64,000 bases of DNA, from contig NZ_BCLI01000005.1 of assembly GCF_001748385.1 (NCBI RefSeq), positions 124,001-188,000 of the forward strand, read 5' to 3'. The notes under the pieces are model-generated. The model was not told where the DNA came from. It did not search any database and was given only the letters and a program-made list of their open reading frames with translations. Both the position numbers and the translations under genes were made by a program. Numbering within the stretch: the first letter of the stretch is position 1; every line of letters begins with the position of its first letter. Origin of the DNA: Vulcanisaeta thermophila. GTDB taxonomy: Archaea; Thermoproteota; Thermoprotei; Thermoproteales; Thermocladiaceae. Shown one piece after another: positions 14,962-62,206 of the stretch.

Positions 14962-15549
14962 ATGGATCTAGGGGATGTGGTGGATAAGGTATTTAGGGAG
15001 ATGCCCCCAGAATCCAGGTTCACGGATGCAGATGCCGAGGTTATTAAGAAGTACTCGAGGGAGTTACTGAGCATAGGCGATAAAATAGTGAAGGTATTTT
15101 ACGACACACTCTTTGCCCACGAACCCACAGCCTCAGTATTCAAGCCCGGTGAAAGGCCCGCGAGGGAGAAGACCCTGGCCGATTGGTGGATTAGGACGAT
15201 TAATGGACCCTTTGATAGGAGTTATTGGGAGTGGCAGGCTTACGTTGGTGTCATACACTTTAGGAGGGATGTGACTAACTCGATGATGATTGCCATGTGG
15301 GCCGTGATACTCAACCTAGTGCAGTATGAACTAAGCAAGGTACTGTCCAAGGAGGAACTTGCAATGCTCATGTCATCACTGCACAAACTGGCCGCAACAT
15401 GTGTCTCCTTAACCGTAGAGGGCTACGTAGAAAGCTACACAACGGCTATTAAGGAGGCAATTGGCGCGGATGATGATCTAATGAGGAATGTGATTGCCCT
15501 GATGAAGGACAAGGTACTTGGGAGTGTTAGTAGGCCCGTGACGTTGTGA
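14962..15549 (+). CDS. Protoglobin
   Basis: The 195-residue protein matches the single-domain protoglobin family (about 195 residues in Aeropyrum). It has the extended N-terminal helix, ADAEVIKKYSRELLSIGD, then FYDTLFAHEPTASVF, and WEWQAYVGVIHFRRDVTN with the likely proximal heme histidine at residue 99. The TCVSLTVEGYVESYTTAI helix follows. Protoglobins bind O2, CO and NO and may sense gas or detoxify reactive species. It stands immediately upstream of the copper-protein cluster, but the 98-bp gap holds a promoter, so it is probably its own unit. Confidence 0.88.
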   Translation: MDLGDVVDKVFREMPPESRFTDADAEVIKKYSRELLSIGDKIVKVFYDTLFAHEPTASVFKPGERPAREKTLADWWIRTINGPFDRSYWEWQAYVGVIHFRRDVTNSMMIAMWAVILNLVQYELSKVLSKEELAMLMSSLHKLAATCVSLTVEGYVESYTTAIKEAIGADDDLMRNVIALMKDKVLGSVSRPVTL

Positions 15550-15558
15550 GTTACGGTT

Positions 15559-15625
15559 GGTGTAACGGTTATTTTAACTGGTTCCATTAAAATCCACGGA
15601 CCGGTTACACCGAGGGTTTTTAACC
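15559..15625. promoter_or_regulatory. Promoter region of the cupredoxin gene with inverted half-sites
   Basis: GGTGTAAC at 15559-15566 and its exact complement GTTACACC at 15604-15611 face each other across 37 bp. Next to the second copy is a TATA-like GTTTTTAACC (about 15616-15625), about 26 bp before the GTG at 15648. A half-site touching the BRE/TATA is a normal place for an archaeal regulator. The membrane-bound winged-helix protein at 16825-17334 is the obvious candidate to bind (inference). Confidence 0.45.
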
Positions 15626-15647
15626 AGGTAACCACATACCCTGCACG

Positions 15648-16463
15648 GTGAGTGTGATGAGGAGGACCTGGTTAATAATCGGGATAGTAATAGCGGTGGT
15701 CGCAGCCTCGCTAGTTGCGCTTGCAATTACTTCCTATTATTATTACTACTATTATGGTTATTACCGCGGACCTGGCTACTACGCACCGGGTCCTTGGGGT
15801 TTCATGAGTTGGATGTGGAGCTGGATGTGGGGTTATAGAGGTGGTTATTACGGTCCTGGCACCACGGTTTCCCCAACCACTGCGCCCACTGGCTATGGCT
15901 ATTATTACTATGGTTACTCCACATTCACAATACCGATTAGTGAGGCTATGAACCTGTCCATGAACATACCCAGTTACGCGCATGTGATTAGGGGTAATGA
16001 TACCATCGTGTTCACGAGCAATGACATAACCCTGGTGGTGCTTGCAATGATGGGTGACGATGCGGTTAAGATGACGGGCATGTCACCACCGCCTTACGCC
16101 CATGGTGATGTCTTCGTGATTTACGGGCTAATAAACCCAACACTCGTGATACCACCTGGCTCTGTGGTTCATGTGATATTCATAAACCTGGATGATGACA
16201 TGTACCACAACTTCGTAATAACCACGGTACCACCACCATACCCATACAATGTAATGCCCTACGTGGGGATGTATGGAGGGTACATGGGGCCTGGCATGAT
16301 GTCAATGATGAGTTGGTTACCACCAGCCAATTACAACGCTGGTTACGCATATGGTTATGAGTACACCGTGGTACTTAACGGGCCGGGCACGTACTGGTAC
16401 CTCTGCACCTACCCTGGACATGCTGAGGAGGGTATGTACGGCGAGGTGATTGTGGGATCGTGA
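15648..16463 (+). CDS. Sulfocyanin-like blue copper protein (membrane-anchored cupredoxin)
   Basis: The 271-residue protein has an N-terminal membrane anchor (residues about 8-28), then a tyrosine-, glycine- and tryptophan-rich linker to about residue 92, then a cupredoxin domain. The type 1 copper ligands are visible: His187 in MYHNFVITTV and Cys253, His258 and Met263 in LCTYPGHAEEGMYG, the C-x4-H-x4-M spacing of sulfocyanin and rusticyanin. It should carry electrons on the outer membrane face, between a quinol oxidase-type or metal-oxidising system and a terminal oxidase (family knowledge); no oxidase gene lies in this window. A long insert (PYPYNVMPYVGMYGGYMGPG and following) near the copper loop is unusual. 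GTG 15648 fits the TATA spacing; ATG 15657 is the alternative. Confidence 0.88.
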   Translation: MSVMRRTWLIIGIVIAVVAASLVALAITSYYYYYYYGYYRGPGYYAPGPWGFMSWMWSWMWGYRGGYYGPGTTVSPTTAPTGYGYYYYGYSTFTIPISEAMNLSMNIPSYAHVIRGNDTIVFTSNDITLVVLAMMGDDAVKMTGMSPPPYAHGDVFVIYGLINPTLVIPPGSVVHVIFINLDDDMYHNFVITTVPPPYPYNVMPYVGMYGGYMGPGMMSMMSWLPPANYNAGYAYGYEYTVVLNGPGTYWYLCTYPGHAEEGMYGEVIVGS

Positions 16464-16467
16464 GGTG

Positions 16468-16647
16468 ATGGGTATGTGCATGGGCCACATATTCATGAGC
16501 CACGACCACACGGGGCATGGTGATGATAAGGAAAAGGAGGAACTTAGGCGTGAGGTTGAAATGCTCAAATTAAGGGTTGAGAAGTTGGAGGCTGAGGTTG
16601 AGTTGCTAAGGAGCCTAGTCAATAGGGGTGGTTCCCATGATCACTGA
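16468..16647 (+). CDS. Small His/Met-rich coiled-coil protein
   Basis: ATG 16468 follows GAGGTG and the cupredoxin stop by 4 bp. The 59-residue product starts MGMCMGHIFMSHDHTGHG, nine potential metal ligands (Met, Cys, His), and continues as one charged heptad coil (EKEELRREVEMLKLRVEKLE and on). It ends GGSHDH, again with histidines. No membrane segment is present, so it should be cytoplasmic. It may be a small copper- or zinc-binding chaperone or an assembly peptide for the cupredoxin system (inference). I know no named family. Confidence 0.6.
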   Translation: MGMCMGHIFMSHDHTGHGDDKEKEELRREVEMLKLRVEKLEAEVELLRSLVNRGGSHDH

Positions 16648-16828
16648 AGCAATCGCACTGGCAATTCTCCTATGCCCATGCATGGGGTGGTGGGGGCCCT
16701 GGTGGTTTGGTTACGGTTACTGGTTTGCATCGCCAATGTTCATAATTGGTCCCATACTCCTTGTACTGTTCATGGCATTGATAGTACTACTCATAGTGTG
16801 GCTCCTGAGACAGATAATGAGGAGTTAG
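16637..16828 (+). CDS. Small aromatic-rich membrane protein
   Basis: ATG 16637 overlaps the end of the preceding coiled-coil gene; a GTG at 16628 is also possible. The product (63 residues) has CPC near its N terminus (LLCPCMGWWGPWW), a run of tryptophan, tyrosine and glycine, and a strong single membrane helix (IIGPILLVLFMALIVLLIVW) followed by a basic tail. It is the third gene of the cupredoxin operon and probably sits beside it in the membrane. The CPC pair could hold a metal. No family assignment is possible. It overlaps the end of the convergent regulator gene by 4 bp. Confidence 0.6.
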   Translation: MITEAIALAILLCPCMGWWGPWWFGYGYWFASPMFIIGPILLVLFMALIVLLIVWLLRQIMRS

Positions 16829-17334
16829 TGATTTTTCCTGAGTTCATCCATTTTAACCCTAACTAAGTTCCTCCCCTTAACCTTAGTAACCTCAACAAGG
16901 CCCTTCTCCTCGAGCCTCTTAATAATCCTCCAAACCCTCACCTTATTCAGACCAAGGTCCCTCGTTATCATGTACTGATAAACCTCACCACCATTCTTAA
17001 TAATGTAATCAAGGACCTCACGCTCCTGCCTCGGCAGTAGCTTCAAAACCTGGTTAACACCATCACTGGGTTTAGGGCTAGCATTAACGCTGACCCCGTG
17101 GTCGGTGGCCACCTGCCTACCCAGCACCGCAGGCATTACTATTAATGCAATGCCTATGGTGAGTAGTGACAGGGGTAGGAAGAGTGGGTAGTACATCATG
17201 GGCCCGCACATCATACCCATGCAACCATACCTACCCATGACACCAACCATGTATAAAGCTCCATAGAGAAGGTACACTGAGAACGCAAGCAGTACGGCAC
17301 CGACCACGAGTAGTGCCAGGTGTGTAGTATTCAT
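16825..17334 (-). CDS. Membrane-bound winged-helix regulator with Met/Cys-rich loop
   Basis: The 169-residue protein has two membrane helices (about residues 6-31 and 49-72) joined by a short outer loop reading YGCMGMMCGPMMYYP, then a linker and a C-terminal winged helix (PRQEREVLDYIIKNGGEVYQ, with IKRLEEKGLVEVTKVKGRNL as the wing). Winged-helix domains of this type (MarR/HTH-like) bind DNA as dimers. The loop holds Cys and Met clusters like those of Cu(I)-binding sites, so the protein is a candidate one-component extracytoplasmic copper sensor (inference). It is convergent with the cupredoxin operon and its last codons overlap it. A similar architecture recurs at 61637-62206. Confidence 0.75.
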   Translation of the reverse strand: MNTTHLALLVVGAVLLAFSVYLLYGALYMVGVMGRYGCMGMMCGPMMYYPLFLPLSLLTIGIALIVMPAVLGRQVATDHGVSVNASPKPSDGVNQVLKLLPRQEREVLDYIIKNGGEVYQYMITRDLGLNKVRVWRIIKRLEEKGLVEVTKVKGRNLVRVKMDELRKNH

Positions 17335-17355
17335 TAATTGTGGGGGTTTTAACTC

Positions 17356-17394
17356 ATTAATAAGCCCTTCTTAATCCCCTAATGTTATTAAGAA
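17356..17394 (-). promoter_or_regulatory. Promoter and inverted repeat upstream of the membrane regulator
   Basis: A TATA-like TTATTAA (about 17356-17362) lies about 26 bp before the regulator's ATG at 17334. Just upstream of it is a perfect 8-bp inverted repeat, TTCTTAAT (17368-17375) and ATTAAGAA (17387-17394), with an 11-bp spacer. This is a candidate autoregulatory operator. Confidence 0.4.
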
Positions 17395-61390: not shown

Positions 61391-61684
61391 ATGATGAGGA
61401 AGAGGCCCAGGTCTAGGGTTGAGATATACGCGGACATACTACTGGCACTTAATAAAATGGGGACCTGTGACAAGCTCAGTAGGCTGGCCATGATGGTGGG
61501 TGTTCCCTATGATAGGTTGGTGAGGTATCTTGAGGAGCTTAAATCCATGGGACTGGTTAGGTGGGAGCCGTTTGCTGGTGTTTCCCTGACGCTTAGGGGT
61601 TATGAATTAACCATGTCGTGTGGTATGGATAGAGACTCACTCATTAGATCCATTGACGAGCTTAGAACCGCCCCTCAGTATTAA
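61391..61684 (+). CDS. Small winged-helix protein
   Basis: The 97-residue protein (start MMRKRPRSRVEIYADILLAL) is a compact winged-helix: TCDKLSRLAMMVGVPYDRLV is the helix-turn-helix and YLEELKSMGLVRWEPFAGVS the wing, as in the small archaeal HTH_45 proteins. It probably regulates transcription. A TATA-like GTTATATGC lies about 26 bp before ATG 61391. Its end overlaps the convergent membrane-bound winged-helix gene by 48 bp. Confidence 0.7.
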   Translation: MMRKRPRSRVEIYADILLALNKMGTCDKLSRLAMMVGVPYDRLVRYLEELKSMGLVRWEPFAGVSLTLRGYELTMSCGMDRDSLIRSIDELRTAPQY

Positions 61685-62206
61685 AATGTTGGTGACACCA
61701 GCCCTACGCCTCTCAATTAAACCCTTAACCTCCAGCTTCTTAACAAGTCTGGAGACCTGGTACTTACTTAGACCAAGCTGCCTGCCCAACTCAGCCTGCG
61801 TTATTACACCGCCTCTCTTCTTAATAATTCTGAGGGCCCTCTTTTCTAGATCCGTTAATGGCATAGGCACGGGCATTCCCCCCTCACCGTCGGGTGATGG
61901 CTTTGTCAGCACTGTGGCGCTGCCCCTAGTTAGTGATGTGTATATGAGTATTGATGATATTGATGAGAGTATTATGGCTATTATCAGAGTCAGTAGGAAG
62001 TTGTAAAGTATGGTTGAGTTCTTAAATGGCTGTATTATGCTAACAACAATAGGTCTCCCGTCAATTCCCGTCATTATCACCGGTATTTTACTCGACATGA
62101 AGAAGAGGTATGTCTTGACCACTATGAATATTAGGAGTGCCGTTAGGGATATGCCAAGCCACAGTCGAAGGTACCTCGTGAATATGTTATTACCATACGT
62201 GGGCAT
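61637..62206 (-). CDS. Membrane-bound winged-helix regulator
   Basis: The 189-residue protein has two membrane helices (about residues 14-36 and 68-92) around an outer loop of about 30 residues (IPVIMTGIDGRPIVVSIIQP), then a polar linker and a C-terminal MarR-like winged helix (LEKRALRIIKKRGGVITQAE, LGRQLGLSKYQVSRLVKKLE). It shares its layout with the copper-cluster regulator at 16825-17334 but lacks the Met/Cys-rich loop, so it senses something else. It is convergent with the small winged-helix gene. The target genes are unknown. Confidence 0.72.
   Translation of the reverse strand: MPTYGNNIFTRYLRLWLGISLTALLIFIVVKTYLFFMSSKIPVIMTGIDGRPIVVSIIQPFKNSTILYNFLLTLIIAIILSSISSILIYTSLTRGSATVLTKPSPDGEGGMPVPMPLTDLEKRALRIIKKRGGVITQAELGRQLGLSKYQVSRLVKKLEVKGLIERRRAGVTNILILRGGSKLVNGSNE

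Follow-up and report, generated by a model that had tools for sequence, protein, structure and literature searches.

A Met-tipped, membrane-anchored winged-helix protein as a candidate one-component regulator of copper-protein genes in Thermoprotei

A cluster of copper-protein genes in the hot-spring archaeon Vulcanisaeta thermophila faces the gene of a small membrane protein that, judging from the sequence and its relatives, may act as a one-component regulator dedicated to this cluster: bound to an operator, it would repress the adjacent copper-protein genes, and extracytoplasmic Cu(I) would relieve this repression. We lean towards this account as a whole. More tentatively, and with somewhat greater doubt than confidence, we propose a Thermoprotei family of approximately 150-185 aa in which the tip of a helical hairpin would read extracytoplasmic Cu(I) without a kinase, response regulator or separate sensor domain and switch off a promoter, the GTTWCAC word and a W-rich CPxC partner remaining constant as the target gene is swapped. 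Comparison among genomes lends support to the cluster, the predicted topology, the synteny, the conserved putative operator and the presence of its half-site near distant homologs. The initial annotation of this DNA had already suggested a one-component membrane regulator of the neighbouring genes, a suggestion strengthened by the synteny, by an operator that is both unique and conserved, and by the recurrence of its half-site beside distant homologs.

Gene cluster and identity of the cupredoxin

The analysed genome, that of V. thermophila CBA1501, comprises 2,022,594 bp in 10 contigs, the same size and contig number as in the published genome of this strain (PMC5069417); positions refer to the window, that is, the whole stretch of 64,000 nucleotides that was analysed. 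Within 15648-17334 there are four small genes, three on the forward strand and one on the reverse strand (Table 1). The three forward genes overlap or are separated by 4 bp, and the genes of the W-rich peptide and the regulator are convergent, with overlapping stop codons. All four open reading frames of the cluster as initially annotated were recovered, as were the features assigned to the two short products, namely, a metal-ligand-rich N terminus with a coiled coil in one and an aromatic-rich (here, W-rich) membrane protein with CPC in the other. Directly upstream of the cupredoxin promoter lies a protoglobin gene (14962-15549, forward strand; PF11563, 75.5 bits), and at least four further loci of Vulcanisaeta (L069, L071, L073 and L075) likewise have a protoglobin homolog ahead of the cupredoxin.

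Table 1. Genes and promoter elements of the cluster, with window coordinates
Feature	Position	Strand	Characteristics or basis
Rusticyanin-like type 1 copper protein	15648-16463	+	N-terminal TM anchor, Tyr/Gly-rich stretch
59-aa peptide starting MGMCMGHIFMSHDH	16468-16647	+	Met/Cys/His-rich N terminus, coiled coil, SHDH end
63-aa W-rich membrane peptide with CPC	16637-16828	+	Sequence and orthologs
169-aa membrane-anchored winged-helix regulator	16825-17334	-	Sequence, Pfam, orthologs, AlphaFold model
Putative operator GGTTACAC-CGAGGG-TTTTTAA-CCAG-GTAACC	15603-15633	+	Straddles BRE/TATA; consensus GGTTWCA-N18-GWAACC
Probable TATA box inside the operator	15617-15623	+	Inferred from sequence and position
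Outlying half-site GGTGTAAC (left arm in the initial annotation)	15559-15566		Sequence, orthologs

The four type 1 ligands previously assigned to the cupredoxin were confirmed at His187, Cys253, His258 and Met263 and are kept in full-length orthologs; together with a Copper-bind match (28.4 bits, cut-off 21.2), this ligand set identifies a type 1 copper protein. The label 'sulfocyanin-like', in contrast, fitted less well than 'rusticyanin-like': the protein scored 103.6 bits against the rusticyanin model TIGR03095 (below the curated cut-off of 146.7) vs. 16.7 bits against the sulfocyanin model TIGR03094 (cut-off 168.4), and sulfocyanin was rejected as the best label; the Pfam SoxE score (PF06525) was 22.5 vs. 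a cut-off of 21. The nearest solved structures, and the top sequence matches among these, are rusticyanins (PDB 2cak and 1rcy), with which the C-terminal domain shares the Cys-x4-His-x4-Met spacing, although the V. thermophila protein differs from rusticyanin in its score below the TIGR03095 cut-off and in its long, Tyr/Gly-rich, membrane-anchored N terminus.

The cupredoxin, W-rich peptide and regulator genes are syntenic in Vulcanisaeta, Caldivirga and Thermocladium, and the cupredoxin is essentially limited to the Vulcanisaeta family. The His/Met/Cys peptide is present in four genomes, in all of which the W-rich protein lacks a His/Cys tail, whereas most genomes without a separate peptide encode such a tail on the W-rich protein. 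The peptide and the tail are complementary, which suggests that a single metal-binding function may be placed on either chain. In one complete Vulcanisaeta genome (G019; L073, 6232-8263), the regulator gene is split by approximately 1.4-1.5 kb of inserted DNA that carries a 358-aa open frame resembling a transposase, and the cupredoxin and the operator are intact; we count the interruption of the regulator gene against the regulatory account.

The regulator and its loop

The winged helix of the regulator scored above the Pfam cut-offs for DUF7343 (PF24034; 31.3 vs. 27.6) and MarR_2 (PF12802; 31.2 vs. 27), models that span the winged helix only, the Met-tipped hairpin falling outside. Two hydrophobic helices flank the loop YGCMGMMCGPMMYYP, with the tip GCMGMMCG. 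An AlphaFold model (mean pLDDT 78) placed the helices at residues 3-36 and 45-76, the tip at 37-44 and the winged helix at 91-160, with confident helices and winged helix and a low-confidence linker (76-89). The hydrophobic helices, the Pfam matches and the model agree with the two-helix membrane protein with a winged-helix tail that had been proposed, and the combination of a DNA-binding domain and TM helices in one chain is the architecture of a transmembrane transcription regulator. Because the DNA-binding domain must be cytoplasmic, the tip would face outside. A search of solved structures with the regulator profile gave no match, and Foldseek with the regulator model returned generic ArsR/MarR-like winged helices alone, none with an E-value below 0.001. 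The window also encodes a distant paralog (~32% identity; 61637-62206, reverse strand), a two-helix membrane winged-helix protein without the Met/Cys loop.

Of the 33,834 windows of 15 residues taken from the open stretches in all six frames, none but the regulator loop and one segment of the cupredoxin reach this level of Met+Cys richness. The loop reads YHCMGMMCGMMMYYP in most species, YHMMGMMGGFLAYYP in one Caldivirga (L062) and YMGMMRG in Thermocladium (L067/L068). The Met/Cys loop pointed out previously is therefore conserved as a loop with its Met kept in orthologs, but its Cys is absent in L062 and L067/L068; the loop Cys appears dispensable, which we count against our preferred explanation. 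In a 14-sequence alignment, the loop Met41 is the sole fully invariant residue in the N-terminal half, and the loop Met is invariant across distant homologs as well. These residues also bear on the alternative that the role of sensor or partner falls to the W-rich CPxC membrane protein, which would signal within the membrane to a regulator that senses no ligand of its own. Of all the neighbours, the W-rich protein is the most constant; its gene converges on that of the regulator in both Vulcanisaeta-type and Pyrobaculum-type loci, and it has a soft-metal motif (CPxC), in many cases together with a His/Cys tail; however, the regulator loop carries its own invariant Met and soft-ligand pattern, and we consider this alternative decidedly unlikely.

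Relation to known regulators

The nearest studied archaeal kind is ArnR. ArnR/ArnR1 of Sulfolobus resembles the present protein as an archaeal HTH regulator with a two-TM-helix anchor, and acts via inverted repeats; it consists of an N-terminal HTH, a HAMP domain, a sensor domain and a C-terminal TM pair, and activates archaellum genes via TCGAC-N5-GTCGA (PMC6396743). Here, the domain order is reversed (N-terminal TM hairpin, C-terminal winged helix), there is no HAMP, sensor or other further domain, the putative operator straddles the TATA box, and the context is copper. CopR of Pyrococcus furiosus, composed of an N-terminal HTH and a metal-sensing TRASH domain, is likewise an archaeal one-component regulator whose gene lies next to copper genes and whose semi-palindromic site is close to the TATA box (PMC7830388), but the word membrane is absent from that report, whereas the present regulator gave no Pfam match to a TRASH domain and has its putative ligands in an outer membrane loop.

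In CueR, CopY, CsoR, ComR, BxmR and archaeal CopR, the metal site is in a domain directly joined to the DNA-binding part (PMC10141476, PMC7830388), and outer copper is read by two-component systems, e.g., CusRS, one-component regulators being predicted to detect cytoplasmic signals according to a review of bacterial copper signalling (PMC10141476). Proteins that combine a TM region with a DNA-binding domain are common in Thermoproteota according to a census of such transmembrane transcription regulators (PMC10269533), in which the words copper and metal are absent; the regulator family, its loop and its operator are undescribed in the literature searched. A literature search that covers part of the published work, such that an earlier description is possible, surfaced no membrane-bound one-component copper sensor and no description of the Pyrobaculum/Vulcanisaeta cluster. 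What appears to be new is the block synteny with a Met-kept loop, the TATA-straddling operator, and the occurrence of its half-site next to distant homologs that have no cupredoxin. If the proposal is true, few complete transmembrane signalling devices would be smaller than this two-helix protein, which would itself both sense outside copper and bind DNA; having a defined operator, it can be tested directly and could become a simple model for membrane-bound transcription factors.

A conserved operator in the cupredoxin promoter

The operator, with its exact 18-bp spacing, is found in 12 of the 14 orthologous cupredoxin promoters, and information averages 1.75 bits across the half-sites, 1.24 across the TATA-containing spacer and about 0.46 across the flanks. 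A lack of conserved DNA sites, which the initial annotation had named as grounds for dropping its proposal, was accordingly not observed. The particular sites it had put forward fared differently: GTTACACC (15604-15611) is part of the conserved operator, whereas TTCTTAAT...ATTAAGAA, upstream of the regulator, is present in 0 of 13 orthologs and was rejected as the regulator's own site. Half-sites of the form GTGTAACC, similar to GGTGTAAC, occur upstream of the operator in L064 and L074. In Caldivirga L062, the half-sites are present at changed spacing, a point that we count against the preferred explanation.

The 2.02-Mb V. thermophila genome contains one exact match to the operator, that in the cupredoxin promoter. 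Allowing two mismatches, the matches in the same genome equalled the reversed control in number, and therefore no wider regulon is visible; no half-sites were found in Vulcanisaeta CopA promoters. Given these two results, we rejected the view that in Vulcanisaeta the operator marks a copper regulon spread over the genome.

The same half-site beside distant homologs

A profile search identified full-length homologs with the Met/Cys loop in Pyrobaculum/Thermoproteus-type genomes and in records named Thermoproteus, Thermofilaceae and Desulfurococcales. The proposed co-occurrence of loop and cupredoxin accordingly holds in part: the two are syntenic in the three genera named above, but none of the distant loop-bearing homologs has a cupredoxin beside it. 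Instead, these homologs are divergent from a gene for a secreted, Met-rich protein that matches PepSY weakly, and most of them are convergent with or near the gene of a W-rich CPMCGWWGG... protein resembling the W-rich peptide of the window; further neighbours are often DUF411, YHS and a CopA-type ATPase (TIGR01511, 562.6 bits). In a whole-genome search, the PepSY protein was found in 10 of the 81 genomes of the class and in none of the Vulcanisaeta family. From these distributions of PepSY and cupredoxin, it would follow that one target gene was exchanged for another while the regulator and its W-rich CPxC partner were retained; this would be a clear example of regulatory rewiring in which the regulator and the DNA word stay the same. 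Two complete genomes congeneric with the Pyrobaculum-type carriers (G029 and G030) lack both the PepSY gene and the composite half-site/TATA pattern described below, and the phylum search gave no match to a loop-type regulator in either.

An unbiased count of 7-mers in the divergent promoters of the distant homologs identified GTTTCAC/GTGAAAC as the most enriched word (8 of 9 regions, 0.22 expected), and the corresponding count in cupredoxin promoters identified GTTACAC (8 of 12, 0.18 expected), with GGTTTCA close behind; these expected counts ignore relatedness, and one genus contributes several of the nine regions, which leaves effectively about five plus three independent lineages. The distance from the end of the half-site to the TATA box is 6-7 bp in most promoters of both target types. 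Four Pyrobaculum/Thermoproteus-type genomes each contain the composite half-site/TATA pattern a single time, in every case in the PepSY promoter, and its reversed control has no match in those four genomes; because the pattern was derived from the same promoters, it is informative for genome-wide rarity only. Half-sites are also located upstream of a DUF411-CopA operon (G028), a DUF411-thioredoxin operon (G026) and CopA itself (G031).

The distribution of the half-sites can be set against the possibility that the operator is read by a different, soluble factor, the membrane winged-helix protein being a neighbour with another target. The operator is absent from the regulator's own promoter in Vulcanisaeta, and in G035 the half-sites remain although the regulator is gone; both facts would fit a soluble factor, and we count both against the preferred explanation. 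On the other side, the site is unique to the cupredoxin promoter and recurs beside regulator homologs at unrelated target genes, and in G043, which has the PepSY and W-rich genes and no regulator, there are 0 half-sites in 5 kb. We consider a soluble factor the least probable of the alternatives. At the G035 locus (L235, 2963-3322), a deletion took out the regulator gene that had separated the W-rich and PepSY genes, leaving the W-rich signal peptide and CPM motif fused to the PepSY protein; the GTTTCAC half-sites upstream of the fused W-rich/PepSY gene survive.

Proposed mechanism and the case for copper

Under the proposed membrane-bound regulation, the winged helix would bind the GGTTWCAC half-sites straddling the TATA box of the cupredoxin promoter, and the bound regulator would block TBP/TFB or the polymerase. 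Outside the membrane, Cu(I) would be bound by the Met-rich tip, aided by Cys or His where present; the Cu(I)-bound hairpin would then move, relieving the repression, and the cupredoxin, the His/Met/Cys peptide and the W-rich CPxC protein would be made and handle copper at the cell surface. That the regulator binds the operator is our inference. In archaea, sites on both sides of the TATA box usually signify repression, and because the half-sites flank the TATA box, the regulator probably represses the cupredoxin promoter.

The nature of the signal is our best guess, as is the step from the loop to DNA binding: we favour Cu(I) because copper proteins make up the targets and neighbours and the tip conserves residues with thioether or thiol ligands. 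The link to copper is circumstantial, though stronger than the initial annotation could show: the homologs are accompanied by CopA, DUF411, YHS and Met-rich PepSY genes. Alternatively, the hairpin might sense redox state or an oxidant through Met/Cys oxidation, or Ag, Hg or As, with the cupredoxin and PepSY proteins as part of the response. This is the least improbable of the alternatives, though still fairly unlikely: a disulfide could form in the CPxC-type loop of many homologs, the cupredoxin follows a protoglobin gene both here and in several Vulcanisaeta, and DUF411 and YHS proteins are not exclusive to copper, but several module-bearing homologs lack the loop Cys, and the recurrent neighbours are CopA-type ATPases and type 1 copper proteins. 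As to what copper sensing would serve, the 'surface electron-transfer module' of the initial annotation is a guess, and a role in extracytoplasmic copper handling is no worse a fit, given that the targets of the homologs are copper-handling rather than redox-chain genes. In Vulcanisaeta and Caldivirga loci L198-L202, a YHS-domain gene either overlaps the start of copA or directly adjoins it, and the two likely form a YHS-CopA operon.
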